42,766 nucleotides of DNA from a virus. The notes beneath the pieces are model-generated. The model searched no databases, had not been told where the DNA came from, and was given only the letters and a program-made list of their open reading frames with translations. Shown piece after piece: positions 1,023 through 27,446 of this stretch (position 1 is its first letter; each line of letters starts with the position of its first letter). Both the position numbers and the translations under genes were made by a program. Where the stretch lies: positions 1 through 42,766 of the IMG/VR virus record IMGVR_UViG_3300007734_000971; one strand, 5' to 3'.

Positions 1023-1041
1023 AAGTTGTATAATATAATCT

Positions 1042-1737: not shown

Positions 1738-1738
1738 A

Positions 1739-1960
1739 ATGGATGACAAAGAATTAATATTTTATAACCGTTGCCTTGAATTTTTAACCTACTTTAGAGT
1801 TAGTTTTGAAGGTGATACAATTTACTTAACTGATGGTGGAAAATCATGTATAATGAATCCAAACACAGAATGGAAAGAATTTATAGGACATTCAGTGAAT
1901 AGTGTAGCTGAATATGTTGCCAAAAAGATGAATAAACCAACAAAATGGCTATTGGATTAA
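1739..1960 (+). CDS. Small hypothetical protein
   Basis: 73 residues, acidic N-terminus, no clear domain. Alternating hydrophobic segments (VSFEGDTIYLTDGG) suggest a small alpha/beta fold. The ATG lies one base after the stop of the preceding methyltransferase and the gene ends 15 bases before the aminotransferase-like gene, so it is probably part of the same transcript. No function can be assigned. Confidence 0.6.
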   Translation: MDDKELIFYNRCLEFLTYFRVSFEGDTIYLTDGGKSCIMNPNTEWKEFIGHSVNSVAEYVAKKMNKPTKWLLD

Positions 1961-1975
1961 AAATTTATTAAATTT

Positions 1976-2644
1976 ATGAGCAAAGGAGTTTATAGAATTA
2001 CGGAAGAATTTGAGCAGGCGTTAAGTGACTATACAGGAGCACCTTATGTCATCACAATTGATAATGCTTGTAATGCAATATTTTTATCACTCTATTATGA
2101 AAAGAACATATCTAAAACATTAACAGCAGATACAATTACAATACCTGCTAGAACATATCCAGGAGTTCCACCTGAAATTATACGCAATGGTCTTAAAATT
2201 GACTTTTTGGAGCCAACTAAAAAAACACTTAAAGGGCCCTACCAGTTAATCGGTTCAAATGTTTGGGATTCAGCACTTCGTTTTACTCACGATATGTACC
2301 AACCAGGAACCTTTATGTGTATATCAATGACTGGAGGACTCAAAAATTTTAAACTCGGTTCAAAAGGTGGAGCAATATTAACTGATGATGCTGATGCTTA
2401 TGCTTGGTTCAAACGAGCAAGATTTAGTGGCCGCAGGGAAGTTCCATATATGGAAGATAACCTCGATATGTTAGGTTGGAATTACTACCTCAACCCTGAA
2501 TTAGCAGTTAGAGGATTAATTCTAATGACTGGTTTCTATAAAGATGGAAAGCCAATCTCAGTTCCTGATAAAGAGTTACCATATCCAGATTTATCAAAAT
2601 TCAAAATATACACAGATGCAAACAGAGATAATACAAGCCAATAA
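1976..2644 (+). CDS. Shortened DegT/DnrJ/EryC1-type aminotransferase
   Basis: 222 residues resembling the N-terminal, PLP-binding part of sugar aminotransferases of the DegT/DnrJ/EryC1 class, which transfer an amino group from glutamate to a nucleotide-linked keto-sugar. VWDSALRF (D98) matches the Asp that contacts the pyridine nitrogen. SMTGGLKNFKLGSKGG carries the expected Schiff-base lysine (K123). Family members are usually about 350-400 residues, so the C-terminal small domain is mostly missing. The downstream reading frame (2616-2873) does not continue the fold. It is either a genuinely compact enzyme, a domain that pairs with another subunit, or a decayed gene. The context of sugar-modifying genes supports a role in amino-sugar synthesis. 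Confidence 0.7.
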   Translation: MSKGVYRITEEFEQALSDYTGAPYVITIDNACNAIFLSLYYEKNISKTLTADTITIPARTYPGVPPEIIRNGLKIDFLEPTKKTLKGPYQLIGSNVWDSALRFTHDMYQPGTFMCISMTGGLKNFKLGSKGGAILTDDADAYAWFKRARFSGRREVPYMEDNLDMLGWNYYLNPELAVRGLILMTGFYKDGKPISVPDKELPYPDLSKFKIYTDANRDNTSQ

Positions 2645-2873
2645 TATAGACGGCTCAAAATATAGAATACTGGAAATTAGATCAAACTCCCATTCGAAAT
2701 TTATACCTCAAAAAAAAGTGTTATTCCGTTGGATGAATTGGGATAAACTTAATAGATATGGAGGAAATTTTACCTTCAATGATATAAATGGTGCTATAGA
2801 TGTTATTCAAAAAGAAAATGGGGTAAAAATAATCCATAAATTTGAAAGAATTAGATCAACTGGAGAAAGATAA
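2616..2873 (+). CDS. Hypothetical protein overlapping the aminotransferase-like gene
   Basis: 85 residues from the ATG at 2616, overlapping the end of the preceding gene by 29 bases in another frame. A longer version from an ATG at 2544 would overlap about 100 bases and its extra residues look like an out-of-frame shadow, so 2616 is preferred. The protein is basic (KYRILEIRSN, KFIPQKKVLFRW) without a recognisable motif. It could be the remnant of a gene joined to the shortened aminotransferase, but it shows no aminotransferase features. Confidence 0.5.
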   Translation: MQTEIIQANNIDGSKYRILEIRSNSHSKFIPQKKVLFRWMNWDKLNRYGGNFTFNDINGAIDVIQKENGVKIIHKFERIRSTGER

Positions 2874-2911
2874 ATCTATAAACCCCTATAATTTTCAATA
2901 CCTTTTACAAT

Positions 2912-3076
2912 ATGTATAATAAGATGAAAGAACAGCCGACAAAGTCGATTCAAATTGAAGCAGCAATTCATGAACAATTGAGAAAATATTGTGATGACAA
3001 TGGTTTGAAGATGCAACGACTGGTTGAAAAACTTATTATAAATGAAACAACCAAAAAGTCAACAAAACATAACTAA
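2912..3076 (+). CDS. Small ribbon-helix-helix-like protein
   Basis: 54 residues. The core has a short strand (KSIQIEA) then a helix (IHEQLRKYCDDNG) and a second helix (KMQRLVEKLIIN). That is the arrangement of MetJ/Arc/CopG-type ribbon-helix-helix DNA-binding proteins, so it may be a small transcriptional regulator. The last 35 bases overlap the GIY-YIG gene starting at 3042, so its C-terminal tail (residues 44-54) is shared with the endonuclease start and may have been altered when that gene was inserted. A second ATG at 2924 would give a protein four residues shorter. Confidence 0.55.
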   Translation: MYNKMKEQPTKSIQIEAAIHEQLRKYCDDNGLKMQRLVEKLIINETTKKSTKHN

Positions 3077-3779
3077 AATATATTTAGTAACTAATTGTTA
3101 TGGAGATCCTAATAAAGTTTATGTAGGAAAAACAAAAGGTCAAAGAATTTCTAGTCATAAACATACTTTTGGAAAACAAATAGAATATAATTATATAGAT
3201 GAAATAAATTCTTTGAGAAAAGAAGATTATATTCCTTTAGAATGTTATTGGATAGAACAATTTCGCCAATGGGGTTTTGAAGTAGTTAATAAGAATAAAG
3301 GGGGCGGTGGATGTTCATTTCTAACTCAAAAGACTAAAAATAAGATAAGTAAATCTCTAAAGGGTAAACCCAAGCCAAAAGGATGGGGTAAAACAAATAG
3401 TAATAATAAAGAAAGGAGTTTGAAAATATCTAAATCAATGAGCGGAAGAATTCAAAGTGAGGAAGAAAAACAAAACAGAAGACATCCAAAACCTGAAGGA
3501 TTTGGTGAAAAAATTAGAAAATATCAATTAGGTAAACCAAAATCTGAAGAAACAAAGAAGAAATTAAAATTTAAAAGCCAAGAAGGAATAAATAATATTA
3601 AAAAAGCAAATAATAAACCAATAATTCAATATAATTTAGATATGAATCCAATTAAAGAATGGCCTAGTATTAGTGAAGCTCAAAAATGGTTAAATAAAGG
3701 ATATATAACAGGTTGTCTTTTAGGAAGACAAAAACAAGCAGGAGGATTTATTTGGAAATTTAAAAACCAATCTATATGA
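3042..3779 (+). CDS. GIY-YIG homing endonuclease with NUMOD DNA-binding repeats
   Basis: 245 residues. The N-terminal nuclease domain starts with IYLVTN and VYVGKTKGQR (about residues 13-35), corresponding to the GIY and YIG parts with the conserved Arg. WIEQFRQWGFEVVN holds the catalytic-type Glu region. Several NUMOD3-like repeats follow (KISKSLKGKPKPKG, KISKSMSGRI, KPKSEETKKKLK), then a C-terminal NUMOD1-like segment (IIQYNLDMNPIKEWPSISEA to FIWKFKN). Such free-standing nucleases cut intron-less or gene-less alleles and spread by copying. It overlaps a small gene on its left and the WbqC-like gene on its right by four bases, so it looks like an insertion into the glycan cassette. A related gene lies at 34428-35150. 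Confidence 0.85.
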   Translation: MKQPKSQQNITKIYLVTNCYGDPNKVYVGKTKGQRISSHKHTFGKQIEYNYIDEINSLRKEDYIPLECYWIEQFRQWGFEVVNKNKGGGGCSFLTQKTKNKISKSLKGKPKPKGWGKTNSNNKERSLKISKSMSGRIQSEEEKQNRRHPKPEGFGEKIRKYQLGKPKSEETKKKLKFKSQEGINNIKKANNKPIIQYNLDMNPIKEWPSISEAQKWLNKGYITGCLLGRQKQAGGFIWKFKNQSI

Positions 3780-4444
3780 GAATTGGAATTATGCAAGGAT
3801 ATTTCTTTCCATATATAGGCTACTTTCAGCTAATTAATGCAGTAGATATTTATGTAAACTTAGATCATGTTAGCTTTATGAAACGCAGCTACATGACACG
3901 CAACACAATTAAAAATGGAGTAGGAATTAATATCCCAGTTTATGGTGGTAGTCAAAATAAATCTTGCACGCAGGTGAAAGTAAACAACGGAAACAACTAT
4001 CAAATCAACTTTTTAAAAACGATAGACCATTTATATCATAAGCATTCACCTTACTATGAAGAGGTTTTAAATCAATTGATTTTACCGTTTCCTCCTATAA
4101 ATTCGTCTATAAGCCAATTCAACCTAGCATATATAAAACGCATTTGCAACTATTTAGATATTAAAACAACTATTATCGACTCGTCAGTAGGTATGACAAA
4201 TAAAAAGAAGGGTGAAGGGCTAAAGGAGATAGTTTGTAACCTAAATGGGGATTCATATATTAATGCTATTGGGGGTAAAGAATTATATTTCAAGGATGAT
4301 TTTCGATTAGACGGAATTAGATTAAGTTTTATTAAAATGGGAGAAGTGCAGTTTGAAAATCCATATACCTCAATTTTAGATTTACTGTTTACATATCCAA
4401 AAGAGTATATCAAGGAGCAATTAAATAAATACGAATTAATATAA
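3776..4444 (+). CDS. WbqC-like family protein
   Basis: 222 residues matching the WbqC-like family by MQGYFFPYIGYFQLINAVD (residues 6-24), then KRSYMTRN, and in the C-terminal half YINAIGGKELYFKDDFRLDGI. The family is found in O-antigen and capsule gene clusters and is thought to act in modification of glycan-linked amino sugars, though its reaction is not established in general. The ATG overlaps the GIY-YIG stop (ATGA), and its own stop overlaps the next start (TAATG), so it is translationally coupled on both sides. Confidence 0.85.
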   Translation: MRIGIMQGYFFPYIGYFQLINAVDIYVNLDHVSFMKRSYMTRNTIKNGVGINIPVYGGSQNKSCTQVKVNNGNNYQINFLKTIDHLYHKHSPYYEEVLNQLILPFPPINSSISQFNLAYIKRICNYLDIKTTIIDSSVGMTNKKKGEGLKEIVCNLNGDSYINAIGGKELYFKDDFRLDGIRLSFIKMGEVQFENPYTSILDLLFTYPKEYIKEQLNKYELI

Positions 4445-5178
4445 TGGGAATTTTAAATGAAAAATATACTAAAGAAAGAAATGATGTGGATGGGTATGAA
4501 GGTGATAAGAATAATCAATCTTACTTAAAGATTGCTGAACATTATAACAACTGTTTCCAAATTCATGGTGACACTCATTTAGGTGTTGACTGGCCTAACC
4601 ATCAAGACACTCTCAAGCGACATGAAACCATGTACGGAGTTATAAGAGAAAAGGGTATAGGTGGTATTGCAAACAGTAGTATATTAGATTTCGGTTGTGG
4701 AGCAGGTCATTTTTATGAATGGTTACTAGCTAATAAAGATTTCCCACCAATTTACTCAGGGTTAGATATAAATCAATCATTTATCGACTTATGTAACTAT
4801 AAGTTTCCTCAAAATCAATTCTATCGAATGGATATCCTAAATCCAGATATTGAACCTATATCATTAATGTCATTTGAACAGTTGGGTAAATTTGATTATA
4901 TAATTGCAGATGGAGTATTCACTGAAAAAAGGGAATTAACTTGGAATCAAATGTTTTATGATTTTTTTACACCAACAATATTCAAATTGTGGACTAAGGT
5001 GAATAAAGGGTTAGCATTTAATGTAATGTCTACTAATATTTCTAAAGATAGAACCAATTTATTTGCTGTTAGCTTAGATCAAATCCAACAACTTTGTAAG
5101 GATGTATTATTTTGTGATTTTGTTATTAAAGCTGACTACTTACCTTACGAATATACTGTTTACTGCTATAAAAAATAG
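4444..5178 (+). CDS. Class I SAM-dependent methyltransferase
   Basis: 244 residues. The glycine-rich SAM motif ILDFGCGAGHFYEWL lies at about residues 79-93, followed by an acidic strand end (YSGLDIN) and a post-motif region (FDYIIADGVF). The N-terminal 60 residues include HQDTLKRHETMYGVIRE, a lid-like helical region. The 3' part lacks features that would name the substrate. Its start overlaps the WbqC stop, placing it in the glycan cassette, so a sugar or lipid-linked glycan acceptor is plausible. Confidence 0.8.
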   Translation: MGILNEKYTKERNDVDGYEGDKNNQSYLKIAEHYNNCFQIHGDTHLGVDWPNHQDTLKRHETMYGVIREKGIGGIANSSILDFGCGAGHFYEWLLANKDFPPIYSGLDINQSFIDLCNYKFPQNQFYRMDILNPDIEPISLMSFEQLGKFDYIIADGVFTEKRELTWNQMFYDFFTPTIFKLWTKVNKGLAFNVMSTNISKDRTNLFAVSLDQIQQLCKDVLFCDFVIKADYLPYEYTVYCYKK

Positions 5179-5180
5179 TT

Positions 5181-5321
5181 ATGATTAGAAAAATTTTATG
5201 TTTTATTGGAATACATAATTATATTTGGAAAGAAACTGGAAGATTTTGGCCTAGAAGTAAAGTTGAACACAAAGAATTTAGATGTCATTATTGTAATAAA
5301 TTTTGTGAAATTAATTGGTAA
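5181..5321 (+). CDS. Very small zinc-ribbon-like protein
   Basis: 46 residues. The N-terminus (MIRKILCFIGIHNY) followed by a Cys-containing tail (CHYCNKFC) resembles tiny phage and prophage proteins of the DUF1660 type, in which Cys residues near both ends may bind one zinc ion. The stop TAA shares its last base with the ATG of the dioxygenase at 5321, so the pair is probably translated together. The family link is tentative. Confidence 0.5.
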   Translation: MIRKILCFIGIHNYIWKETGRFWPRSKVEHKEFRCHYCNKFCEINW

Positions 5322-6202
5322 TGAATTATAAAGAGGCTTGTTACTTAATTTGGGGTTCTGTTCCAATTGATAAAGAATGGGCAATTAAAACTAACATTTA
5401 TAAAGAATTTATGAGATCAGATCACATAGACCAAATCCAAAAAAACGGCTACTGCATAATACCTCAAGTATATGATAAAACAGAGGTAGCATATTTACTA
5501 CTTTTAGTTAAAAAATATTATGAGGAAACTAAAGATAAAATATCACAGGAGACACCATATTTAAATCTCAATTCACCCAACTTATATAATCTTCAGAATA
5601 AAGATATCAACTTTATTCACTCGTTGTTTAAGTCTAAAAAAGTTGAGCAAATTCTAATCCATTTTCTAAACGACAAATGGTATAAAGCAATCCCCCAAGA
5701 CCAACCAAACTATATACTAAGACATTTTGGAGCCCGTTCATCTAATACAGCATTACCATTGCATATCGACAGCTTTATACCCTACAAAGGGGATGAAGTG
5801 TTGGCTATGCAAGTGGCTATAATGTTAGAAAATAGTACTATTAAAAATGGTTGCACAACAGTTGTACCTGAATCACATCAATCAGGAAAATATGCTAAAA
5901 ATCCTCCAGGATGGTATAATAAATTTCAACCAATCGAGGTTGAAGCTAAAGCAGGAGATATTCTCATATGGGATAGTAGGCTTTGGCATGGTACAACAGA
6001 AAATAAAACAAAAGGAACTCGTTGGGCTATGATTGCAACATTTACTCGCTGGTTTATTAAGCAAATGTTCGACATACCAACAGCATTACCACCTGAAATA
6101 AAAGAACAATTAACTCCAAAACAAAAATCAATTTTAGGATTCAATTCTATTCCGTATATTACTGAATATGAAGGTATTGAAATAAAAAAAGGATATGAGT
6201 AA
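5321..6202 (+). CDS. Phytanoyl-CoA dioxygenase (PhyH)-family Fe(II)/2-oxoglutarate oxygenase
   Basis: 293 residues from the ATG at 5321; a TTG six bases upstream (5315) is open in the same frame but the ATG is preferred because it overlaps the preceding stop. The iron triad of the PhyH family is visible: LPLHIDSF (H148, D150) and WHGTTENKTKGTRWA with distal H223, then R234 for 2-oxoglutarate. VVPESHQSGKY (about 181-191) is the usual PhyH loop. It would hydroxylate or otherwise oxidise a small molecule or sugar-linked substrate. The protein is longer than the second PhyH copy at 8436-9197. Both sit in the glycan cassette. Confidence 0.85.
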   Translation: MNYKEACYLIWGSVPIDKEWAIKTNIYKEFMRSDHIDQIQKNGYCIIPQVYDKTEVAYLLLLVKKYYEETKDKISQETPYLNLNSPNLYNLQNKDINFIHSLFKSKKVEQILIHFLNDKWYKAIPQDQPNYILRHFGARSSNTALPLHIDSFIPYKGDEVLAMQVAIMLENSTIKNGCTTVVPESHQSGKYAKNPPGWYNKFQPIEVEAKAGDILIWDSRLWHGTTENKTKGTRWAMIATFTRWFIKQMFDIPTALPPEIKEQLTPKQKSILGFNSIPYITEYEGIEIKKGYE

Positions 6203-6854
6203 ATTAGCTCCAAGTATAAATTTTCCAACAAACAGAGTAATTATTTTCGGTATAAATGATTTAGCTGAATTAGCTACATATTATTTAAGGAATGATTCTC
6301 GATATCAAGTTATAGGTTATACAACAACTAAAGAATATAGGCCTAAAGAAAATATGTTTCAATTATTACCTATATGGTCTTGGGAAGATTTAGAAAATTA
6401 TTTTGAACCTGATGAATATTTATTATTTGCTCCATTGGCTGATAATAAGTTGAGGGAAAAAATTTATAATGAAGGTTTAAAAAAGGGATATAAATTCATC
6501 AGCTATATATCATCTAAAGCAACTACATTTAATACGCAAGTTGGTGAAAATTGCTTTATACTTGAAGATAATACAATACAACCATTTACTAAAGTAGGTA
6601 ACAATGTGGTAATGTGGAGTGGTAATCACTTAGGACACCACAGTATAGTTGAAGATAATTGCTTTATTAGTAGCCATGTTGTTATTTCAGGTCATTGCAA
6701 CATTAAAAAGGGAGCATGGTTAGGAGTAAATTCAACTATCAGAGATGGAGTAACAATTGGAGAAAATAGTATAGTAGGAATGGGAAGTGTTGTTACAAAA
6801 TCTATCCCTAATAATGAAACTTGGATTGGTTCACCAGCAAAGAAAAAAGAATAA
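6195..6854 (+). CDS. NeuD/PglD-like left-handed beta-helix acyltransferase
   Basis: 219 residues. The N-terminal 90 residues form a Rossmann-like part (RVIIFGINDLAELATYYL), and the C-terminal half has hexapeptide-repeat sequence (GNNVVMWSGNHLGHHSIVED to GENSIVGMGSVVTKSIPNN, about 133-207) ending in WIGSPAKKK. This is the plan of sugar O- and N-acetyltransferases such as NeuD and PglD. GHHS (about residues 149-152) contains the expected catalytic His. It overlaps the upstream dioxygenase by eight bases. It probably acetylates an amino sugar, which fits the nearby aminotransferase-like gene. Confidence 0.85.
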   Translation: MSKLAPSINFPTNRVIIFGINDLAELATYYLRNDSRYQVIGYTTTKEYRPKENMFQLLPIWSWEDLENYFEPDEYLLFAPLADNKLREKIYNEGLKKGYKFISYISSKATTFNTQVGENCFILEDNTIQPFTKVGNNVVMWSGNHLGHHSIVEDNCFISSHVVISGHCNIKKGAWLGVNSTIRDGVTIGENSIVGMGSVVTKSIPNNETWIGSPAKKKE

Positions 6855-6855
6855 A

Positions 6856-7566
6856 ATGGAAAATACAGAGAAAAAAATTAAAGAAGTAAAAAAATTATTT
6901 ACTTGGCCTAAAGAAAAACCAACAACACCTCCTGATACTCATGGATGGTTTTGTCAGGGTAATGCTCTATTGTTAGATCATTACATACAAGAACTTAAAC
7001 CTGAATTTATTCTTGAATTAGGTAGTTGGACAGGTGCAGGATCTACAAATTTTATTCTAAATAGGGCTCCCAATTCTCATGTTATTTGTGTTGATCATTG
7101 GTCTAAAGATTGGAAAGATCATACAAATGGAGACACTACAGGTCATCCTGAAGTAGATCATGAAACTGGAAAAGTTAAACCAACAGATGAGCATGGAAAT
7201 ATAACTGATTTAAGTCATATTGCTACTTTATGGGAATCCTTCCTACAAAATAATTGGGATCATCAACACCATTTAACTCCAATAAGAGCTAAAACGGAAG
7301 AGGGATTAGAAATTTTAAAAAAATTAGATATCCCAGTAGAATTAATTTATATTGATGCTCACCATCACTATGAAGGAGTAGTACATGACGTAATGAAATG
7401 TGCAGAAATATGGCCTAATGCTGTATTAATAGGAGATGATTGGACTTGGGAATCTGTTAGAGAAGCGGTTCATGATTGTGCTAAAAAATTAGATAAAAGA
7501 ATATATCATCTTGATACTGTTTGGACATTTACTGATGAGTTAGCATTTAGAATACCAACAGCTTAA
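6856..7566 (+). CDS. Class I SAM-dependent methyltransferase (Methyltransf_24-like)
   Basis: 236 residues from the ATG at 6856, placed after the upstream stop at 6854; an in-frame ATG at 6787 would overlap the acetyltransferase and adds out-of-frame-looking residues. SAM motif FILELGSWTGAGSTNFIL (about 51-68), VICVDHW, and LIYIDAHHHYEGVVHDVMKC with LIGDDW mark the family with metal-assisted O-methylation. Two bases separate it from the beta-propeller gene. It is the third methyltransferase of the cassette. Confidence 0.8.
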   Translation: MENTEKKIKEVKKLFTWPKEKPTTPPDTHGWFCQGNALLLDHYIQELKPEFILELGSWTGAGSTNFILNRAPNSHVICVDHWSKDWKDHTNGDTTGHPEVDHETGKVKPTDEHGNITDLSHIATLWESFLQNNWDHQHHLTPIRAKTEEGLEILKKLDIPVELIYIDAHHHYEGVVHDVMKCAEIWPNAVLIGDDWTWESVREAVHDCAKKLDKRIYHLDTVWTFTDELAFRIPTA

Positions 7567-7567
7567 A

Positions 7568-8449
7568 ATGAATTGGATTAAACAAGATAATATATTTAAC
7601 GAACATCATGCTCAACTTCCTGTTGTAGATACATATCCTGCTACTTATAAAATATATTATTCAACTAGAAATGAGAATGGATGTAGTGTTCCGATGTTTA
7701 TTTCTGTTTTTAAACATAATCTTAAACAATGTATCTCTCCTATCGAAATTGATATACCATTAGGTAAACCTGGATCTTTTGATCATTACGGGGTAATGCC
7801 TACTGATATTATAACATTGAATAATAATATAAAGTATCTTTATTATATCGGTTGGTCACTAAGAAAAGATATCCCATATCATAATACATTAGGATTAGCT
7901 GTAAGTAAAGATAATGGAGTTAATTGGGAAAAATATTCAGATGGTCCTATATTTAATTCAAGTATTCTAGAACCTGGTTTTATAGGTACTGCTAAAGTAT
8001 TTAAAACAAACGATGAATGGATTATGTATTATTTATCTTGTAGAGAGTGGATTGATAATAATGGAAAATTAGAGCCTACGTATGATATAAAAATAGCTAT
8101 ATCTAATAATGGTATTGATTGGACACCAACAAATAAAATAGCTATACCTTTAGAAGAGAACGAAGGTGGGATTGCTTCTTTTCAAATGATTGGTAATCAA
8201 GCTTGGTTTTCAGTTAGAGGCAGATTTTCTTATAGAAATAATACTAATGAATCTTATAAAGTAAAATCAGCCACTTTAATTAACAATGAATGGATTAGAA
8301 ATAAAGAAGTAGATTTAGATATATCATCTGAAGGGTGGGACTCAGAAATGGTAGCTTACCCATATATAATAAAAGAAAATGATAAATTAATAATGTTTTA
8401 TAACGGTAATGGTTTCGGCAAAACAGGAATAGGCTATGCTACAAAATAA
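7568..8449 (+). CDS. Five-bladed beta-propeller, glycoside hydrolase-like (GH43/GH32 superfamily)
   Basis: 293 residues with repeated blade signatures: LYYIGWSLRKD then LGLAVSKDNGVNWEKYSDGP, WIMYYLSCREW then IKIAISNNGIDWTP, and KLIMFYNGNGFGKTGIGYAT at the end. The S-x-DG-x-x-W motif is typical of the GH43/GH32/GH130-like propeller superfamily. Possible acidic residues are present (DHYGVMPTD, EPGFIGT, SEGWDSEMVAYP), but a catalytic triad cannot be fixed by eye. No signal peptide is seen, so it is intracellular or virion-bound. Its start follows the preceding stop by one base, and it overlaps the next gene by 14 bases. Confidence 0.7.
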   Translation: MNWIKQDNIFNEHHAQLPVVDTYPATYKIYYSTRNENGCSVPMFISVFKHNLKQCISPIEIDIPLGKPGSFDHYGVMPTDIITLNNNIKYLYYIGWSLRKDIPYHNTLGLAVSKDNGVNWEKYSDGPIFNSSILEPGFIGTAKVFKTNDEWIMYYLSCREWIDNNGKLEPTYDIKIAISNNGIDWTPTNKIAIPLEENEGGIASFQMIGNQAWFSVRGRFSYRNNTNESYKVKSATLINNEWIRNKEVDLDISSEGWDSEMVAYPYIIKENDKLIMFYNGNGFGKTGIGYATK

Positions 8450-9197
8450 ACTAGAAACAGACGGTTATATTATACTAAGAGATTTCTTTAATGTAGGAAG
8501 GCTTAGTCAATTATATAATAATGCTAAATTTATATTTGATATCCAATTTAAACATTTTGGTTATGATATTTATTCACCTACTAACTTAGGTTATCATAAT
8601 TTACAAGAAAATATGATTCGTTTATTTAACGAACATCCTAATGTTTTTATTAACTGTGGTAAATTGATTCAGACGGGATTGCCTCAATTATATCAATTAG
8701 CTTTTGATCCTGAGCTACTAGGATATCTTGAAGAATTAGGTATAGTTTATCCAAATGTTTGTACTCGACCAGTCCTATATTTTAATCATCCTAAATTAGC
8801 TAAATCAAAGGAGTATTATATGACTCCTAAACACCAAGATTGGCCTTCAATGGAGGCATCATTAAATAGTTTAGTTGTTTGGGTTCCATTAGTTGATGTA
8901 AACAAAGAGAATGGATCGATTATTATTTATCCTGGTTCACATAAAAATGGAGTATTACAGAACAAAATCAATGGAGGCTTTGCTGAAGTAGATTATGAAG
9001 GAGAGTCAATTCAACCAACAATGAAAGTAGGCGACATAGCAATATTTAGTACCCTCTTAGTTCATGAATCAGGTCCTATTTTAAATGATACAATTAGATG
9101 GAGCTGCCATTTCAGATATACTGATATGCTAGCTCCAGATTTCATAAAAGCTGGATATCCAAGCCCTTATTCATATATTCCTAATACAAAGAAATAA
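8436..9197 (+). CDS. Second phytanoyl-CoA dioxygenase (PhyH)-family oxygenase
   Basis: 253 residues. The Fe(II) site is formed by KHQDWPSM (H133, D135) and distal H210 in LLVHESGP, with R221 as the likely 2-oxoglutarate ligand. VPLVDVNKENGSIIIYPGSH (about 150-169) is the characteristic PhyH strand and loop. It is clearly different in sequence from the PhyH protein at 5321-6202, so the two probably arrived or diverged separately and may act on different substrates of one glycan pathway. The ATG lies inside the 3' end of the propeller gene. Confidence 0.85.
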   Translation: MLQNKLETDGYIILRDFFNVGRLSQLYNNAKFIFDIQFKHFGYDIYSPTNLGYHNLQENMIRLFNEHPNVFINCGKLIQTGLPQLYQLAFDPELLGYLEELGIVYPNVCTRPVLYFNHPKLAKSKEYYMTPKHQDWPSMEASLNSLVVWVPLVDVNKENGSIIIYPGSHKNGVLQNKINGGFAEVDYEGESIQPTMKVGDIAIFSTLLVHESGPILNDTIRWSCHFRYTDMLAPDFIKAGYPSPYSYIPNTKK

Positions 9198-9201
9198 AAT
9201 T

Positions 9202-9693
9202 ATGGCTCGATCGTTAAAAAATTATAGACAAAATTTAAATGAATCGGAACAAAAACTCCAAGAAATTGGGCAATTAATTAAACCCTACCAAAATAAATTT
9301 AAATTTGAAGAAAAAGGAAATTCAATATTTACTAGATTTAATGATGATCAAACTAATCAAATTAGAGTGTTTTTCCACCGTTTTAAAACCGGAGTTAATA
9401 GTTTTGAGGTAGAATTTGATATTAATAATCAAGGTGTAGAAGCGTTTAAAACAACGACAAAACATTTTTTTAAAATAATATCAACAGTAATAGCTGTTAT
9501 AAACCAATTTATTGAAGAATATCAACCAATCCAATTATATATTGAGGGATTGGATAAAAAGAGGAAAGTGGGTCAAAAAAATAATATTTGGTTACAATAT
9601 GCTAAAGTTAATATTAAAGATCAAGGATATGCTATTGGTTTAACTGATAATGGGTTTATGTTACAAAACAATAAATTAATTAATAAAAAATGA
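9202..9693 (+). CDS. Hypothetical phage protein
   Basis: 163 residues. The N-terminal part is predicted helical and charged (NLNESEQKLQEIGQLIKPYQ), then a strand-rich middle (IRVFFHRFKTGVNSFEVEFD) and a helical segment (FKIISTVIAVINQFIEEYQ). No known motif. Its stop overlaps the next start (ATGA), so it is translated together with the zinc-binding protein downstream. Confidence 0.6.
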   Translation: MARSLKNYRQNLNESEQKLQEIGQLIKPYQNKFKFEEKGNSIFTRFNDDQTNQIRVFFHRFKTGVNSFEVEFDINNQGVEAFKTTTKHFFKIISTVIAVINQFIEEYQPIQLYIEGLDKKRKVGQKNNIWLQYAKVNIKDQGYAIGLTDNGFMLQNNKLINKK

Positions 9694-9992
9694 TTCAAAT
9701 TTGTCAACATTGTGGCCAAGAAAAGGAAAATTGTTATAATGGATTTATATCAATGTGTTTACCTATTCCTGAAATGGAAGCACTTAAAGAAAAATATGGT
9801 CAAGAATGGTGGAACTATTTTGAAAAAGATAATTTAACGGAAGAACAAACCAAGGAGTTAGATAACTTAAATAAATATGATCAATTTTTAAATACAGTTG
9901 GAAGGGGAATTCAATGCAACGAATGTTCAATAAAAGAAGAAGAATTATATAACAAATATTATCCAAAAGATGAAATTAAAAATACTATATAG
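9690..9992 (+). CDS. Small protein with two Cys pairs (zinc-binding)
   Basis: 100 residues. CQHCGQEKENC near the N-terminus (C5, C8) and IQCNECS near residue 75 form two CxxC knuckles that could bind one zinc ion. A charged helical linker (MEALKEKYGQEWWNYFEKDN) lies between. It overlaps the genes on both sides, by four bases upstream and 23 downstream. Function unknown; nucleic-acid or protein binding is plausible. Confidence 0.6.
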   Translation: MIQICQHCGQEKENCYNGFISMCLPIPEMEALKEKYGQEWWNYFEKDNLTEEQTKELDNLNKYDQFLNTVGRGIQCNECSIKEEELYNKYYPKDEIKNTI

Positions 9993-10686
9993 TCACCAAA
10001 ATGTGTCAGGAACTGACAATAGGGGGAGACCATCCTGGTTCGACTTTGAGAACTGTTTTAGAAATTTTTTATCAACCCTACATTTTGATCTTCATCCAAT
10101 AGAACTTCATGTCGTTTATGATAAAGCTAATGGTCCACTAGAAACAAACTGGTTAATTAAATATAAAGATAAATGTAATATCCATGAAATTGAAGGTGGT
10201 ACAATGTGGAAAGCAGCATGTCAAATGTATCAATTAGCTAAGCTGTTAAGTGAAGATATGAGTGACGACGACTTATTCTATTTTGTTGAAAACGACTACT
10301 TACATCAAAATGGATGGATTGGTGAAGTGGGAGACTTAATCTACTGCTACAGTGGTCTTAATTATATTAGCTTATACGATCATAAAGACAAATACACTAG
10401 ATTATATCCAGATTTAGTGTCAAAAATAATTTGTGGTAACTGGAGACATTGGAGAACAACAGTCAGTACTTGCGGTAGCTATATAGTAAACAAGAAAATA
10501 TTTTTAGAAGATTATGATATATTAACAGCTGTAGAAGGAGACCATAACAAATGGATCCATTTAGCTGAAACTAGGGGCCGTTTTATATTATCTCCAATGC
10601 CAGGACTCAGTACCCACTGTATGGAGGGATTAATGTCACCAACAGTAGATTGGGAGTTAATTAATAATAAAACTATAAATAAATGA
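9970..10686 (+). CDS. Glycosyltransferase-like protein (GT-A-type)
   Basis: 238 residues. The N-terminus (MKLKILYSHQNVSGTDNRGRP) resembles phage and capsule-cluster sugar transferases. YFVENDYLHQNGW (about residues 104-116) is the DxD-like, metal-binding position, here END, and VEGDHNKWIHLAE plus STHCMEG near the C-terminus are the probable acceptor side. The ATG at 9970 overlaps the previous gene; no better start is visible. It lies directly before a GT2 enzyme with a four-base overlap, so both probably extend or decorate the same glycan. Confidence 0.65.
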   Translation: MKLKILYSHQNVSGTDNRGRPSWFDFENCFRNFLSTLHFDLHPIELHVVYDKANGPLETNWLIKYKDKCNIHEIEGGTMWKAACQMYQLAKLLSEDMSDDDLFYFVENDYLHQNGWIGEVGDLIYCYSGLNYISLYDHKDKYTRLYPDLVSKIICGNWRHWRTTVSTCGSYIVNKKIFLEDYDILTAVEGDHNKWIHLAETRGRFILSPMPGLSTHCMEGLMSPTVDWELINNKTINK

Positions 10687-11498
10687 TAACAGTCATTATA
10701 CCAACCTACCGCAACCCAGAAATGCTTGACCTCTGTCTCAAGTCGATTATTGAAAACCAGGTCAACAAAAACGAAATTATTGTATCTGTAGATGGTTATA
10801 TAGAAGAATCTCAGTGGGTTTTAGACAAATGGAAAGAGTCGATTAGTGTCCTCGATTTAGGTCAAAATCAGGGAATGCAAACGGCATTAAATCTAGCAGT
10901 TTATCAAGCATCAAACGAAAAGATATTAATTGTAAATGACGACAATGTGTTTTGTTCAGAATGGGATAAAATAGTAGAAGCTGATTTCAAAGGAGAAGGT
11001 ACCTGTTTAACAATAGACCAAATTGAACCAGTAGGCCCTAGTATCTTTAATTTTCCTATCTATGATTTTGGTCGCACTGCTAAAGATTTTAGATATGATG
11101 AATTCATAGAAAGAGAAAAAAATATTAGACATATAACAGATATAAAAAGATCTAAAATTGATATGGATGGTGGAATATTTCCATTCTTAATAACTAAAAA
11201 AGATTATATGATAGTAGGCGGCTTTGATACTGGCTATCCTTCACCTTTTATTTGTGATTGGGATTTTTTCCTCAAGTTAGATTTAAATGATATTAAGTTC
11301 TACAGAACTAGAAATATCCGCTTTTACCACTTTGGTAGCAGCGCAACAAAAAATGGTAAAGAGGCAACTATGTTTAAAGCAACTGAGTCACCAGCAGCTC
11401 AAGTCTATTACTACAAATGGGGATTTGCGCCTCAGTTATTTGAAAACAACAGTCACAAACCAAAAGGTCAGTTAATTAAAGGAATAAAATATGAATAA
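10683..11498 (+). CDS. Family 2 glycosyltransferase
   Basis: 271 residues with the clear GT2 opening MITVIIPTYRNPEMLDLCLKS, then EIIVSVDG, and the DxD-type motif ILIVNDDNVF (about residues 79-88) that holds metal and the nucleotide sugar. GGFDTGYPSPFICDWDFFLK (about 179-198) is the usual acceptor-loop region with acidic residues for catalysis. It is cytoplasmic or membrane-associated without a transmembrane segment, and overlaps both neighbours. The acceptor could be a phage structural protein, phage DNA base or host surface glycan. Confidence 0.85.
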   Translation: MITVIIPTYRNPEMLDLCLKSIIENQVNKNEIIVSVDGYIEESQWVLDKWKESISVLDLGQNQGMQTALNLAVYQASNEKILIVNDDNVFCSEWDKIVEADFKGEGTCLTIDQIEPVGPSIFNFPIYDFGRTAKDFRYDEFIEREKNIRHITDIKRSKIDMDGGIFPFLITKKDYMIVGGFDTGYPSPFICDWDFFLKLDLNDIKFYRTRNIRFYHFGSSATKNGKEATMFKATESPAAQVYYYKWGFAPQLFENNSHKPKGQLIKGIKYE

Positions 11499-12534
11499 AA
11501 CAATTTTAATAACAGGAGTAGCAGGATTAGTAGGTAGTAGATTAGCCGATTGGATAATTGAAAATCACCCTGAATATGATGTGTTGGGTATAGATGATCT
11601 ATCAGGTGGATATGAATCAAATATCAATCCTAAAGTTAAATTTATTAAAATGGATGTTAATAATAAATCGGCTTTAGACTATTATTTTAACACCTATAAA
11701 CCAACTTATGTTTACCATTTTGCAGCCTATGCCGCCGAAGGGTTATCGCCGTTTATACGCACTTATAATTACAATAACAACTTAGTTGCTACTGCAAATG
11801 TAGTTAACAACTGTATTAAATATAATGTTGAGCGTTTAATTTTCACAAGCACTTTAGCAGTTTATGGACATGGTAAAGGAGGGATATTTGATGAAACACA
11901 AACACCAGCTCCAATCGACCCCTACGGAGTAGCAAAATATGCTTGCGAAATGGATATTCAAATAGCAGGTGAACAACATGGGTTGGATTGGTGTATCCTA
12001 AGACCACACAACATTTATGGTCGCAACCAAAACATTTGGGACAAATATAGAAATGTTTTAGGTATTTGGATGAACCAATATATAAATCACCAACCATTAA
12101 CAATTTATGGAGACGGAAACCAAACCAGAGCATTTAGTTACATAGACGACATTTTGGAACCAATGTGGAATGCAGCAAGCCGACCAGAAGCATCTAAGCA
12201 GATAATTAATCTTGGGGGAATAGTTGAATATAGTATCAATAAAGCTGCTGAAATAATGAATGATATATTACCAACATTAGTTACTATAATTCATAAAGAG
12301 GGACGCCATGAAGTTAAACATGCTATTACAACATGGGACAAATCAGTTAAGTTGTTAGATTTTAAACATAAAACTAGTTTAGGAGATGGTATAAAACAGA
12401 TGTGGGGATGGGCTGTAGAACAACCTCACAGACCAATGTTTGAGTGGTCTGAATTTGAGTTAGAAAAGGGATTATATTCATTTTATCAAACAACAAAAAA
12501 TCCACAATCAATTTTAACTAAATTACATATATGA
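11491..12534 (+). CDS. NAD-dependent sugar epimerase/dehydratase (UDP-glucose 4-epimerase-like)
   Basis: 347 residues of the extended short-chain dehydrogenase family. The NAD(P)-binding GxxGxxG is TGVAGLVGS (residues 8-16). The Ser/Thr-Tyr-Lys set is FTSTLAVYG (118-126) and YGVAKYACE (Y145, K149). NIYGRNQ and GDGNQTRAFSYIDD are typical sugar-epimerase segments. It probably interconverts nucleotide-linked sugars used by the nearby transferases. It overlaps the GT2 gene by eight bases and closes the glycan cassette. Confidence 0.9.
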   Translation: MNKTILITGVAGLVGSRLADWIIENHPEYDVLGIDDLSGGYESNINPKVKFIKMDVNNKSALDYYFNTYKPTYVYHFAAYAAEGLSPFIRTYNYNNNLVATANVVNNCIKYNVERLIFTSTLAVYGHGKGGIFDETQTPAPIDPYGVAKYACEMDIQIAGEQHGLDWCILRPHNIYGRNQNIWDKYRNVLGIWMNQYINHQPLTIYGDGNQTRAFSYIDDILEPMWNAASRPEASKQIINLGGIVEYSINKAAEIMNDILPTLVTIIHKEGRHEVKHAITTWDKSVKLLDFKHKTSLGDGIKQMWGWAVEQPHRPMFEWSEFELEKGLYSFYQTTKNPQSILTKLHI

Positions 12535-15749: not shown

Positions 15750-16050
15750 ATTACTTTTACCTAATAATCAATATATAGAAGTTATACTTACATCTGATAA
15801 TGATGTTTGTATTAATTTTGAAGATAGAATAACTAATAGAGGTTCAACTATAGGTTATTGGCTTAAAAAGGAAAAAATATGGATGAAGAATTGGGACCAT
15901 AATGAAATGTTTAAATGGTGTAAAAAATATCCTCAATTAGGTAGATTAATTCTAAAAGCTCAAAATCATAAAGAGGTAATACCTGTTATTCTTCAGTGGA
16001 AATGTTTTAAACGCAAATTCAAGTTAACAATTCACAACTTAATTAAATGA
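15742..16050 (+). CDS. Hypothetical basic protein
   Basis: 102 residues, Lys- and Trp-rich (GYWLKKEKIWMKNWDHNEMF). Overlaps the genes on both sides (eight bases upstream, four downstream), so it belongs to the unit leading to the glucosaminidase-like gene. No known domain. Confidence 0.6.
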   Translation: MNKLLLPNNQYIEVILTSDNDVCINFEDRITNRGSTIGYWLKKEKIWMKNWDHNEMFKWCKKYPQLGRLILKAQNHKEVIPVILQWKCFKRKFKLTIHNLIK

Positions 16051-16589
16051 TAAAGACATATAAATCTAAAGATGGATTTATCTATAGGTATGATTCTGAA
16101 ACTCTTTTACCTATAAAGGAGAAACGAGTTTGGAGATGGCCTTTAGTTACTATTCTCTTTATCGTTATAATTGGTATTACAACACCGATAGGAATATCTC
16201 AATGTAAAGATGTTAAAAAATTTTTACACATTAAAACAGTACCTCCGTTAACTGAACAGAATTTATTAGATAGTTTAGTAAAATGGAATTGTTATTTTCC
16301 TGAATTAGTAATTAAGCAAATGAAAATTGAGTCTGCTAATTTTAATTCAAATATATTTCATCAGACTAACAACTTGATGGGAATGACTTATCCAAGTAGG
16401 AGACAAACAACTGCTATTGGTAAGTATAAGGTGGGTAAATACACATATGCTGTTTATGATAATTGGGTGTCAAGTGCAAAAGATTATCTACTGTTTCAAC
16501 AAACTTACTTTACTGAAAAATATTATCACTCCTTTTTAGAAAATGTCGGCTATGCAGAAGATTCTTCATACATTAATAAAATAAAATAA
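16047..16589 (+). CDS. Membrane-anchored glucosaminidase-like lysin
   Basis: 180 residues. A cytoplasmic N-terminus of about 30 residues is followed by one transmembrane segment (WPLVTILFIVIIGITTPIGI, 31-50), then a domain of the N-acetylglucosaminidase (GH73, FlgJ/LytG-like) type. MKIESANFNSNIF has the catalytic-type Glu (E95), NNLMGMT matches the NLFG motif, and YAVYDNWVSSAKDYLLF is the typical YxxWxxSxxD segment. It probably cuts peptidoglycan glycan strands in the periplasm, as a signal-anchor endolysin or as a cell-envelope modifier. Next to it are short membrane proteins. The lysin role fits phage context but the topology has to be assumed. Confidence 0.75.
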   Translation: MIKTYKSKDGFIYRYDSETLLPIKEKRVWRWPLVTILFIVIIGITTPIGISQCKDVKKFLHIKTVPPLTEQNLLDSLVKWNCYFPELVIKQMKIESANFNSNIFHQTNNLMGMTYPSRRQTTAIGKYKVGKYTYAVYDNWVSSAKDYLLFQQTYFTEKYYHSFLENVGYAEDSSYINKIK

Positions 16590-17226: not shown

Positions 17227-19029
17227 ATGAAAACAAAAATAAGCAATAACTTTGCTCTCAAAGTATTATTCTGGTGGGTAGTATTTTCAACATTACTGAT
17301 AATATCAGTTAAATCATTTGGTCAGTGTGCTGGTACTGAAACATCAACAGTATCACCTTTACCCACTAATGGAACTTATGCTCCTTCAACAACAGTAACT
17401 TTCTGTTATAATATGAATGGTTTTAATCAAGTATCATCTAACTGGATTGAAGGATTTGATTTAACATTCGGTCCAGGTTGGGACTTATCAACATTGACAC
17501 CTATATTATTACCTAATTCTTGTAGTACATTTGGTCAATGGGGATTTTATAATTCAGTTACTTCAACTAATTCTGGATTAACATTCGGACCCGGTTTCTT
17601 TTATGACACATATAACTTCAATAATACATTAGACGGTAACCCAGGAAATGATTGGGGAGATTATACACAAACAGGAACCTGTCAATGGGGTTTTTGTTTT
17701 GAAATAACTACATTAGCGGCTTGTAATGCTTTAGATTTATCAGTATTAGTAACAGCATTAGGTGATGGAACTGCAGGGTCGTGGGTAAACCAATCATGTC
17801 CTTTAATTCCATATCAATTAGTAGCTGCTGTTTGTTCTAATCCTTGTAATCTAGATTTGACTTATATTATAACTAACCCAACTTGTTTTGGAGCATATAA
17901 TGGGTCGATTATTATACAAATGGACAGTGGAGTAGCTCCTATAACAAATGTTTGGTCAATAGGTAATGGAAATAATTTATGTGATGGTAGCTATTCAGTC
18001 ACTACAACAGATGCTAATGGTTGTTCAACTGATACAACATTAACATTAACACAACCTGATAGTATTTGGGCTACTCTAACGTTTGATAGTTTATTGTGTT
18101 TTGGAGACAATAATGCAACAGCAACACTTATTCCTCAAGGTGGTATTCCACCTTATATAGTAAGTTGGAGTAATGGTGATATTGGTTTAACAACAAGTGG
18201 ATTAATAGCAGGTAGTTATATAGTGTCTATGACTGATGCTTCATTTTGCCCTCAAATATTACCATTTTTTATGAACAGTTGGCAAACATCATTTACAATC
18301 TACCAACCAACATTATTAGTAGATAGTATTTACGCTCAAAATGAATCTTGTGTTGATGCAAGTAATGGTTGGACAACAATTCAGGCATATGGAGGAACTT
18401 CACCATATACTTATTCATGGAATACAGGTGATACAACACAAATTATAGAAGCATTAGATTTTGGAACTTATAATGTAACAATCACAGATGCGAATGGATG
18501 TATAATAGTAGATAGCATTATAGTAGGAACAAATCCAATAATTTATTTTGAAGCGTGTTGTGATACACAAATATATAATGGAGACCAAGTAACATTGTCA
18601 AGTAGTTTTATTAGCAATTATAATTACAATTGGTCTAATGGGGATAATGGCTATTATTCATTAGTGTCACCAACTTCAACAACTACTTATTATGTTTGGT
18701 GTGATGGTGGAAACGGATGTTATTATTTAGATAGCGTTGTTGTAATAGTTTTACCAACAGATTATTTGTATATTCCAAATGCATTCTCACCTAATGGAGA
18801 TGGCATTAATGATGAGTTCTATCCAATAACAGGAGAGATAACTAAAATTAAAGGATTTAGAATATATGATAGATGGGGTGAGTTGGTTTACGAATCAAAC
18901 GGTAGATATAGTTGGGATGGGCATTATGGAACTAAAGCATGTTCAGTAGGTGTATATGCTTATTATTTAGAATATAATATATATGACAATCAATTCATTA
19001 AAAAAGGAAATGTAACATTAATAAAATGA
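17227..19029 (+). CDS. Secreted SprB-repeat protein with type IX secretion C-terminal sorting domain
   Basis: 600 residues. A Lys-rich start and hydrophobic core (VLFWWVVFSTLLIISVKSFG, about 13-32) form a signal peptide ending before QCAGTE. Residues 35-205 are Thr/Gly/Asn-rich and strand-rich. Three SprB-type repeats follow at about 216-280, 286-345 and 376-435, each with CFG/CVD...NG, a PxYxxxWSxGD or similar core, and a G.Y.V..TDANGC end. The last 85 residues (515-600) are the gliding-motility-type sorting domain: IPNAFSPNGDGINDEFYP, FRIYDRWGELVYES, WDG, GVYAYYLEY. In Bacteroidota this domain directs proteins through the type IX secretion system to the cell surface. A phage protein of this kind would be made in the infected host, exported by the host machinery and shown on its surface. 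A virion-fibre role is less likely because of the signal peptide. Its base and codon use resemble the neighbours. Confidence 0.9.
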   Translation: MKTKISNNFALKVLFWWVVFSTLLIISVKSFGQCAGTETSTVSPLPTNGTYAPSTTVTFCYNMNGFNQVSSNWIEGFDLTFGPGWDLSTLTPILLPNSCSTFGQWGFYNSVTSTNSGLTFGPGFFYDTYNFNNTLDGNPGNDWGDYTQTGTCQWGFCFEITTLAACNALDLSVLVTALGDGTAGSWVNQSCPLIPYQLVAAVCSNPCNLDLTYIITNPTCFGAYNGSIIIQMDSGVAPITNVWSIGNGNNLCDGSYSVTTTDANGCSTDTTLTLTQPDSIWATLTFDSLLCFGDNNATATLIPQGGIPPYIVSWSNGDIGLTTSGLIAGSYIVSMTDASFCPQILPFFMNSWQTSFTIYQPTLLVDSIYAQNESCVDASNGWTTIQAYGGTSPYTYSWNTGDTTQIIEALDFGTYNVTITDANGCIIVDSIIVGTNPIIYFEACCDTQIYNGDQVTLSSSFISNYNYNWSNGDNGYYSLVSPTSTTTYYVWCDGGNGCYYLDSVVVIVLPTDYLYIPNAFSPNGDGINDEFYPITGEITKIKGFRIYDRWGELVYESNGRYSWDGHYGTKACSVGVYAYYLEYNIYDNQFIKKGNVTLIK

Positions 19030-21214: not shown

Positions 21215-21247
21215 TCACCATTTCGTATATTGATCACGCACAAAAAA
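21203..21247 (+). promoter_or_regulatory. Repeated phage promoter, copy 7
   Basis: GTGGC at 21203-21207, 18 bases, TATATTG at 21226-21232, GCACAAAAAA at 21238-21247. Drives the RadA-like gene. Confidence 0.7.
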
Positions 21248-21259
21248 ATAACAAAACCA

Positions 21260-22084
21260 ATGAATACTGAAAAGAAAAAAAGAGGTCGCCCATCAAAAGT
21301 AACAATGAATGCTACTTATGTTCCATCATTGATTAATTTCGATTCAATTCAAAAGTTAAATGAATTGGATATCAATCCAGGTATGCTTGAGTCAATGCTT
21401 TCCGGTACTGCATTAGATAAACTCATTTCGCATGAAGGTGGTGTTCCATGTTCAACAAATATTATGTGTATTGGAGATCCAGGTGTCGGAAAAACAACAA
21501 TTTTATTGGATTTGATGGCACAAGTGCAAAATCGTAATAAAAATCGTAAATGTTTATTCATCTCAGGTGAAATGGGTAAAAAGCAAATGTTCAAATATAC
21601 TGAACGTTTTAAACATTTTGGTATAATTGATACATTATTTACAAGCGATTATGCTGAATACAATACCAAAGATGTTATGGAGCAATTATTCGACAAAGGT
21701 TATGATTTAATATTAATTGACTCTGTTGCCGAAGTATTAGATGCAGTTAGAAATGATAACAATTGGGATCGTAAAATGGCTGAGTCTTGGTTAGTAGATA
21801 TTTGTTACAAAAACAACAAAGGTGAAAATAAAGGACATAAATTTACAACATTTTTACTGATTCAACAAGTTACTAAAGGTGGAGTGTTCGTTGGTTCAAA
21901 TAAATTAAAACATATGATGGATGCAGCATTAGAGCTTCGTCGTGATCCAAAAACTGAAGCAACATCACTTGAGTTTACCAAAAATAGAAATGGCAATGTT
22001 AATCTTAAATTTGGTTTCCAAATATTAAATAGCAGCATTTATTATGGTACAGTAGTTGAAGAATCGTTTGAAGATAAAGAATAA
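21260..22084 (+). CDS. RadA/RecA-like recombination ATPase with N-terminal AT-hook
   Basis: 274 residues from the ATG at 21260; a TTG at 21230 is open in frame but lies inside the promoter. Walker A is GDPGVGKTT (72-80), Walker B is DLILIDS (149-155). ISGEMGKKQM (101-110) and IQQVTKGGVFVGSNKLKHMM match the RadA/Sms pattern more than T4 UvsX. It lacks the RadA zinc finger and the C-terminal Lon-like domain. KKKRGRPSK (5-13) is an AT-hook-like start shared with two neighbours. It probably acts in recombination or branch migration during phage DNA replication, or in loading a helicase. Confidence 0.8.
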   Translation: MNTEKKKRGRPSKVTMNATYVPSLINFDSIQKLNELDINPGMLESMLSGTALDKLISHEGGVPCSTNIMCIGDPGVGKTTILLDLMAQVQNRNKNRKCLFISGEMGKKQMFKYTERFKHFGIIDTLFTSDYAEYNTKDVMEQLFDKGYDLILIDSVAEVLDAVRNDNNWDRKMAESWLVDICYKNNKGENKGHKFTTFLLIQQVTKGGVFVGSNKLKHMMDAALELRRDPKTEATSLEFTKNRNGNVNLKFGFQILNSSIYYGTVVEESFEDKE

Positions 22085-26552: not shown

Positions 26553-27145
26553 ATTGGGCCACAATCCCTCCGTCGATTAGACGAGTCGCTTATCAAATTA
26601 AAGCACCATAGTTAATTCCAGTGAAAATCAAGCAATGGTCCGTCATTACTGTATAGCCAGTTCGCGAGTGGAATTCAAGCCTACTGCAGTAGATTCGTAA
26701 CAGCCGAAATATAGATAGTGAAATTCAAGCTTTACCTCGACGGAGTGTTAAACCAGTTAAAGCCTTGGGTGATGCATTTAGTTTAATTGGAATAAAACCT
26801 TGATTTTCATCAAGAGATGTGGGTTCGAACCCCACAGTGCATCCAAAATTTTAGATATCATTTAGTATATTCTCTCAGGAGTTGCAACTTCTGTTAATAT
26901 TAAATGTATTTAACCGTTTATTTCAAGTGGAGATATATAGTTAGCGATTTCTATATCTTGATATAAACATTTAATTAAAACATTTAAGATAAGCAGTTTC
27001 TTGATCCTAATATTATACAGAAACAATGATTGGAATTTTAGGCAATTCATGAATCATAGGTTAGCAGAAACTAGTTAATAGTAATGGTCACCATTAATAT
27101 AATAGCTTCGCAACAGTACCTCTCAGGGCCAGAAAAGCTGTTTTA
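26553..27145 (+). ncRNA. Candidate large structured noncoding RNA around a tRNA-like gene
   Basis: About 600 bases without an ORF. Long stem: CTCCGTCGA (26568-26576) with TCGACGGAG (26737-26745). Inside it AATTCCA (26614-26620) pairs with TGGAATT (26669-26675); small hairpins lie at 26634-26647 and 26681-26692 (CTAC/GTAG); ATTCAAGC is repeated at 26673 and 26723. After the tRNA-like gene: CAGGAGT/ACTTCTG (26876-26893), ATATAG/CTATAT (26935-26956), nested TGATT/AATCA and GAATT/AATTC (27027-27056), TAATGG/CCATTA (27082-27096), and AACAG/CTGTT (27112-27142) followed by a T-rich tail. Large ornate phage RNAs such as GOLLD and ROOL lie near or around tRNA genes in this way. Family membership is inference; two separate RNAs on either side of the tRNA are also possible. 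Confidence 0.5.
26771..26844 (+). tRNA. tRNA-like gene, possibly tRNA-Glu(UUC), with unusual anticodon arm
   Basis: Acceptor ATGCATT (26772-26778) pairs with AGTGCAT (26836-26842) and is extended by G26771-C26843. D stem GTTT/AAAC with GG in the loop. The T arm is perfect: GTGGG TTCGAAC CCCAC (26819-26835). The anticodon arm CTTGA TTTTCA TCAAG (26799-26814) allows only a 6-nt loop, or an 8-nt loop ATTTTCAT with four pairs; with the latter the anticodon would be TTC. CCA is not encoded. It may be a working tRNA with an odd arm, or a tRNA domain inside the surrounding structured RNA. Confidence 0.6.
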
Positions 27146-27372: not shown

Positions 27373-27442
27373 AGTAGGGTTAGTCGAGACGGCTAATAGG
27401 TCTGCAAAACCTATGGAGTGAGATTGTTACTCACCCCTACTT
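27373..27442 (+). tRNA. tRNA-Cys(GCA)
   Basis: 70 nt. Acceptor AGTAGGG (27373-27379) with CCCTACT (27435-27441). D arm TTAG/CTAA. Anticodon arm TAGGT CTGCAAA ACCTA with anticodon GCA at 27404-27406. T arm GTGAG/CTCAC. The discriminator T (27442) is right for tRNA-Cys. The T loop ATTGTTA is unlike the usual TTCRANN, so tertiary D-T contacts may be weaker. CCA is not encoded. Confidence 0.85.
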
Positions 27443-27446
27443 CAAA

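Follow-up and report, generated by a model that had tools for sequence, protein, structure and literature searches.

Type B type IX secretion cargo with SprB repeats predicted in a phage contig, with related and split forms in other viral sequences

Cryophage carries three genes for type A cargo of the type IX secretion system (T9SS), and a role in superinfection exclusion has been proposed for them (Bellas et al. 2020; PMC7468147). The C-terminal sorting domains (CTDs) of type B cargo require PorP/SprF shuttles for secretion and stay bound to these shuttles (PMC12618676, PMC9143113), and secretion of a type B CTD fusion from a plasmid-borne gene depended on co-expression of its shuttle (PMC12618676). 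The type B substrates of Flavobacterium johnsoniae have known or predicted roles as adhesins (PMC12618676); one of them is the giant gliding adhesin SprB. Here we describe a protein of 600 amino acids (aa), predicted to be T9SS type B cargo, that is encoded in IMG/VR virus record IMGVR_UViG_3300007734_000971, a 42.8-kb linear contig analysed over its whole length of 42,766 nucleotides (nt; hereafter the window).

The open reading frame (ORF) for this protein starts with ATG and has exactly the boundaries given in Table 1. A signal peptide, three SprB repeats and a gliding-motility-type sorting domain had been proposed for it from the sequence by eye (the original prediction), and all three were recovered by comparison or profile search. 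The N-terminus, MKTKISNNFALKVLFWWVVFSTLLIISVKSFG followed by QCAG, has a basic n-region, a hydrophobic core and Gln at position +1, as expected from the Bacteroidetes Q-rule (PMC5837995), and is predicted to be a Sec signal peptide cut before Gln33. This site is identical in a close homologue (L092), and of the 65 distinct CTD proteins from viruses, 63 have a small residue followed by Gln at the expected position. Three stretches match the SprB repeat PF13573 (Pfam; E-value 2.2e-19, 69.3 bits against a cut-off of 28). The C-terminus matches both CHU_C (PF13585; aa 516-597, E-value 2.9e-14, 53.4 bits against 27) and the NCBIfam model TIGR04131 (aa 516-599, 44.5 bits against 35, covering model positions 3-84 of 85). 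By these curated cut-offs the protein is a SprB-repeat protein and predicted T9SS type B cargo. The type B CTD occurs once in the contig, and none of 14 control genomes gave a match. Reading the protein as type IX cargo, as originally proposed, is well supported by the predicted signal peptide together with the type B CTD.

In a Pfam search neither the N-terminal domain (NTD, aa 33-210) nor the immunoglobulin (Ig)-like segment before the CTD, whose limits (aa ~438-515) were set by inspection, had a family match of its own. The AlphaFold2 model of the NTD is a beta-sandwich (pLDDT confidence score 88). Its best Protein Data Bank (PDB) matches in Foldseek are adhesin Ig-like domains (8beg and 9ifr), which are weak at a template modelling (TM) score of ~0.4, and its only strong viral structure match is A0A7S9SUG9 of Virus NIOZ-UU157 (E-value 3.9e-10, TM 0.73, 31% identity). 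That protein differs from the one in the window in being 800 aa long and in being annotated by another domain (GEVED) alone. An adhesin-like architecture, with a stalk of SprB repeats and an Ig-like segment beneath an adhesin-like beta-sandwich, is supported, in agreement with the original prediction.

Table 1. Predicted features of the cargo gene and of its context in the window.
Feature	Position	Strand	Basis or remark
ORF, 600 aa, predicted secreted T9SS type B cargo	17227..19029	+	Signal peptide - NTD - 3x SprB - Ig-like - CTD
Sec signal peptide, aa 1-32	17227..17322	+	Predicted cleavage between SFG and Q33, Q-rule; comparative basis
N-terminal domain (NTD), aa 33-210, beta-sandwich	17323..17856	+	Viral homologues, AlphaFold2, Foldseek
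Three SprB repeats, aa ~211-437	17857..18537	+	PF13573; repeat cores at aa 220, 291, 375
Ig-like segment preceding CTD, aa ~438-515	18538..18771	+	Position relative to Ig+CTD proteins of other phages
Type B T9SS sorting domain (CTD), aa 516-599	18772..19023	+	PF13585, TIGR04131
Membrane-anchored endolysin-like protein (phrog_21890)	16047..16589	+	Context; upstream neighbour
UvsX/RecA/DnaB-like ATPase	21230..22084	+	Context; downstream; query for related phages
Baseplate wedge proteins	35861-37735 and 35152-35559		Context; evidence that the contig is viral

We consider it probable that the window protein is a viral surface protein using the host's own export route. The host Sec system would export it and signal peptidase I would cut before Gln33; the host T9SS translocon would take the type B CTD in the periplasm; a host barrel of the PorP/SprF family would receive and anchor the CTD; and the stalk would hold the NTD off the cell. 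Display on the infected cell had formed part of the original prediction: the two export signals point to it, and it is kept here as a deduction from sequence. A host barrel is proposed for the third step because a search of viral records turned up no shuttle gene. PorP/SprF profiles matched none of 50 viral CTD records, and in the positive control, a set of 10 Bacteroidota genomes, they gave 8-20 matches per genome, so that the idea of phages bringing their own shuttle was rejected; the phages would therefore have to use that of the host. Inspection of the window ORFs also gave no PorP/SprF-like gene. An adjacent shuttle gene, common but not universal among type B cargo, is thus missing at this locus, and type B membership is still possible since orphan type B substrates are known.

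The contig is that of a phage, probably with a contractile tail, because it carries baseplate wedge, UvsX/DnaB-like ATPase and endolysin-like genes, and it is probably a fragment. The cargo gene sits between the endolysin-like and RecA-like genes. Among 45 relatives selected solely by the RecA-like gene, one has a type B CTD and 10 have a type A CTD. In a related 156-kb phage contig (L078), the interval before the RecA-like gene likewise holds a gene of this kind; its product combines NTD and CTD but lacks SprB repeats.

The NTD recurs in other viral sequences. In L092 it matches at 96% over the domain, in a gene directly following a terminase gene; it is also found in a 385-kb viral contig and in the phage LR756502 (642 kb), where a protein of 1670 aa carries it with a match of 44% across the aligned domain. 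An iterated hidden Markov model started from two sequences found the NTD in about 20 further loci. An alignment of the domain is highly diverse. A scan of viral contigs with the whole window protein gave no match, because only its ends are conserved, whereas domain-by-domain scans succeeded.

A survey of viral sequences for the type B sorting domain, suggested with the original prediction, found and confirmed it in 163 viral stretches; 80 of these were retrieved. Of 50 viral CTD records, 21, mainly the larger ones, also match the terminase family phrog_2. The huge phages LR745206 and LR756502 (634-642 kb) have four and three type B CTDs, respectively; in the INPHARED set no isolate matched, and the matches were confined to a fragment of 4 kb and two huge phages, both uncultured. 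Display of viral surface structures by infected cells thus looks widespread, and not a one-off. At the small end of the range are secreted CTD proteins that are nearly free of passenger, consisting of a signal peptide, a type B CTD and little else: one of 107 aa (L058:7941-8264) and two of about 110-120 aa (L010, LR756502:597523-597774; L011, LR745206:498975-499214). Nearly all cellular type B proteins retrieved with a small-protein query were far larger. In the records of L012, L088, L090 and L091 (G051, G093-G095) the terminase matches contain several internal stops, possibly marking an intron or similar interruption.

In many phages the parts of the window protein are separate genes in domain order, forming three-gene operons of secreted subunits (for example L211:4334-6070, with similar loci L212-L278). 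The first gene encodes a variable subunit, often the NTD alone (~197-205 aa); the second a constant double-Ig linker (MID, ~187 aa), whose structure model has tandem Ig domains as its Foldseek matches; and the third a small Ig+CTD protein (~188 aa). The subunits lacking the CTD end in I-x-H-N/D. First subunits bear NTD, PKD, SprB, ALK/LTK glycine-rich or other domains, including one weak galactose-binding-like match, and MID, Ig and CTD are fused in one chain in more than 40 other phage proteins. A signal peptide with a Q-site was found in 83 of 84 distinct tailed subunits, and a signal peptide in 58 of 59 CTD proteins. The position of these genes is also regular: in 59 of the 60 loci that have a tail-tube gene, the cargo starts 23-121 nt downstream of it on the same strand (e.g. 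L040:3445-3930), with tail sheath, hub and tape-measure genes close by. This placement suggests late co-expression with virion genes. The window protein is not a member of such an operon; it is a single chain, lies away from the tail-tube position, shares its NTD with the split systems and by comparison of domains is a one-chain relative of them. None of the window ORFs longer than 60 aa ends in the I-x-H-N/D tail.

In a MID-based survey of viral contigs, 100 ORFs carried an NTD or a MID but no CTD, and 99 of them finish with [IVLF]-x-H-[NDYF]-COOH, nearly always in the form I-x-H-N/D, as against 0 of 71 CTD-bearing ORFs. Tailed proteins were the input for the MID model, and the set consists of related sequences with 53 distinct combinations of domain and tail. 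Selection on [IVLF]-x-H-[ND] gave 91 distinct tailed proteins; every one has Ile at position -4, and most read P-x-L-[SG]-P-I-x-H-[ND]. In the MID structure model the tail lies outside the fold, with lower confidence. A strict DNA pattern for the tail, which recalls only part of the tails, matched 54 of 289 loci. In 396 Bacteroidota genomes it gave three matches, in frames of 12-36 aa that are no real ORFs; since a reversed control pattern matched twice, this is the background level. Within the window clade, the tail of L089 is degenerate and reads TIFTN. One metagenome-assembled genome (MAG) of Flavobacteriales contains an ORF of 3162 aa (L095:2908-12393) that ends in GIYHD, and no obvious feature follows this ORF in the locus; the contig may be bacterial or viral, and given this case the tail may not be strictly viral. 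A DNA element such as a promoter or start-overlap signal was rejected as an explanation of the tail, as all codons for Ile, His, Asn and Asp are used and the tail is kept with or without overlap of the next gene. Selection therefore acts on the protein, and the tail probably docks into the next subunit.

In these related phages the same output would be reached through several secreted subunits, the variable first subunit and the double-Ig linker each docking by its tail into the next, down to the small Ig+CTD anchor. We put forward, tentatively and at less than even odds, that large Bacteroidota phages carry a modular display system, often in the tail-gene module, in which swappable heads and a double-Ig linker without a T9SS signal are joined by the I-x-H-N/D tail to a type B CTD anchor, and are exported or assembled at the surface via host T9SS and shuttles. 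If true, this would be multi-subunit (piggy-back) T9SS secretion, virus-specific as far as sampled.

Several points weigh against the host-exported surface protein proposed above. The T9SS competence of the host is presumed from the CTD. Shuttles in F. johnsoniae are often CTD-specific, and a phage CTD might be exported poorly. In six relative loci, near-duplicates among them, the interval occupied in the window holds no secreted type B gene; judged from these relatives, the gene is accessory within its own clade. Finally, the cargo position within 121 nt downstream of the tail-tube gene in the split systems could suit a component of the virion.

As to purpose, the most likely one, which we hold at less than even odds, is blocking of receptors or shuttles on the infected-cell surface. 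The surface would be remodelled such that further phages, the phage's own progeny included, adsorb less, either because host shuttles are occupied or because gliding and T9SS structures, probable flavobacterial phage receptors, are masked. Receptors of Flavobacterium phages are thought to be part of the gliding machinery (PMC7345892), with which this purpose fits, as it does with the nearly passenger-free CTD proteins; shuttle occupation is plausible given that secretion of a type B fusion needs the co-expressed shuttle.

A surface adhesin, sticking infected cells to neighbours, algae or particles and so keeping progeny near new hosts, is possible if rather doubtful. It fits the variable heads: first subunits resemble adhesin heads in their SprB, PKD, glycine-rich and galactose-binding-like domains, and the weak PDB matches of the NTD and the adhesin nature of F. 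johnsoniae type B substrates agree with it. The beta-sandwich likeness is generic, however, and such domains also form plain stalks. Competition for shuttle or translocon alone, displacing host type B adhesins such as SprB and leaving the passenger secondary, is unlikely. The cargo of 107-120 aa, the lack of a viral shuttle in 50 records and the limiting effect of shuttle supply on plasmid-expressed type B fusions (PMC12618676) are in its favour, yet in most viral cargo proteins a large passenger is retained, conserved or diversified, for which pure competition would have no need. We regard a structural role in the virion, as a decoration or fibre, as very improbable: besides its placement behind the tail tube, it could draw on a weak Hoc-like match in the Ig/SprB part of the window protein (phrog_2973, E-value 3e-4), but export signals on nearly every subunit would remove the protein from the cytoplasm, where virions are assembled, and a conserved T9SS CTD would be useless in a particle. 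The least credible reading is a stray piece of host DNA or a neutral passenger gene that the phage acquired or that a binning error assigned to it: the NTD is present in a few Bacteroidota MAGs but in just 2 of 297 Bacteroidota genomes, it recurs in viral contigs at fixed sites beside tail, terminase or RecA-like genes, the codon usage of the split relatives' tail speaks for protein-level selection, and host contamination was rejected on the phage genes of the contig and the fixed cargo placement beside phage tail genes.

Protein-coding genes in other parts of the window were annotated by inspection. Positions 111-12534 hold a long series of apparent sugar or surface-modification genes (methyltransferase, glycosyltransferase, epimerase, dioxygenase-like and acetyltransferase genes), possibly for glycan or capsid decoration. 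Within it, an aminotransferase-like gene (1976-2873) apparently stops early and overlaps a second frame, and is possibly broken. Two GIY-YIG/NUMOD-type homing-endonuclease-like genes lie at 3042-3779 and 34428-35150, the second flanked by tail genes. The window also has a tRNA-Cys gene and a tRNA-like gene of ambiguous anticodon, at 26772-26844 and 27373-27443.

If the proposed export and display are true, many Bacteroidota phages alter what infected cells expose on their outside, and do so via a secretion system specific to these bacteria, with consequences for superinfection, gliding and contact between cells in aquatic communities. Viral cargo would offer probes of type B secretion, being tiny (from 107 aa) and available in natural split versions; the partner of the four-residue tail can be sought directly; and type B cargo marks Bacteroidota hosts for unassigned phages.

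Compared with known systems, the window protein resembles SprB of F. johnsoniae in its SprB repeats, signal peptide and type B CTD. It is not a SprB orthologue: SprB is a giant protein from a sprB-sprC-sprD-sprF operon, whereas the window protein has 600 aa, a different N-terminal domain, phage neighbours and no SprF found. Like the orphan type B substrates of F. johnsoniae, which have no adjacent shuttle gene and whose shuttle is encoded elsewhere, it was found with no shuttle gene nearby; those substrates are chromosomal, while the window cargo is viral and its shuttle would be the host's (PMC12618676). Phage use of the host T9SS, originally thought to be hardly described, has a precedent in Cryophage, which likewise encodes T9SS sorting domains that use the host system, on cargo highly variable between variants, as is the viral cargo here (PMC7468147). 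The window shares with Cryophage a T9SS cargo gene inside a phage. It departs from it in the kind of cargo: Cryophage has type A domains on an endoglucanase, a GH39 protein and a PA14 protein, the window a type B domain on an SprB/Ig stalk. Unlike the split systems, Cryophage has no multi-subunit operon or tail motif in the accessible part of its report (PMC7468147). A literature search, in which few subscription journals were covered, turned up no report of phage cargo of the type B or SprB kind. As far as these sources go, phage T9SS cargo has one precedent, of type A, and the type B/SprB form and the 163 viral stretches are new here; the split system with its tail may be more than a variant of known phage T9SS cargo.
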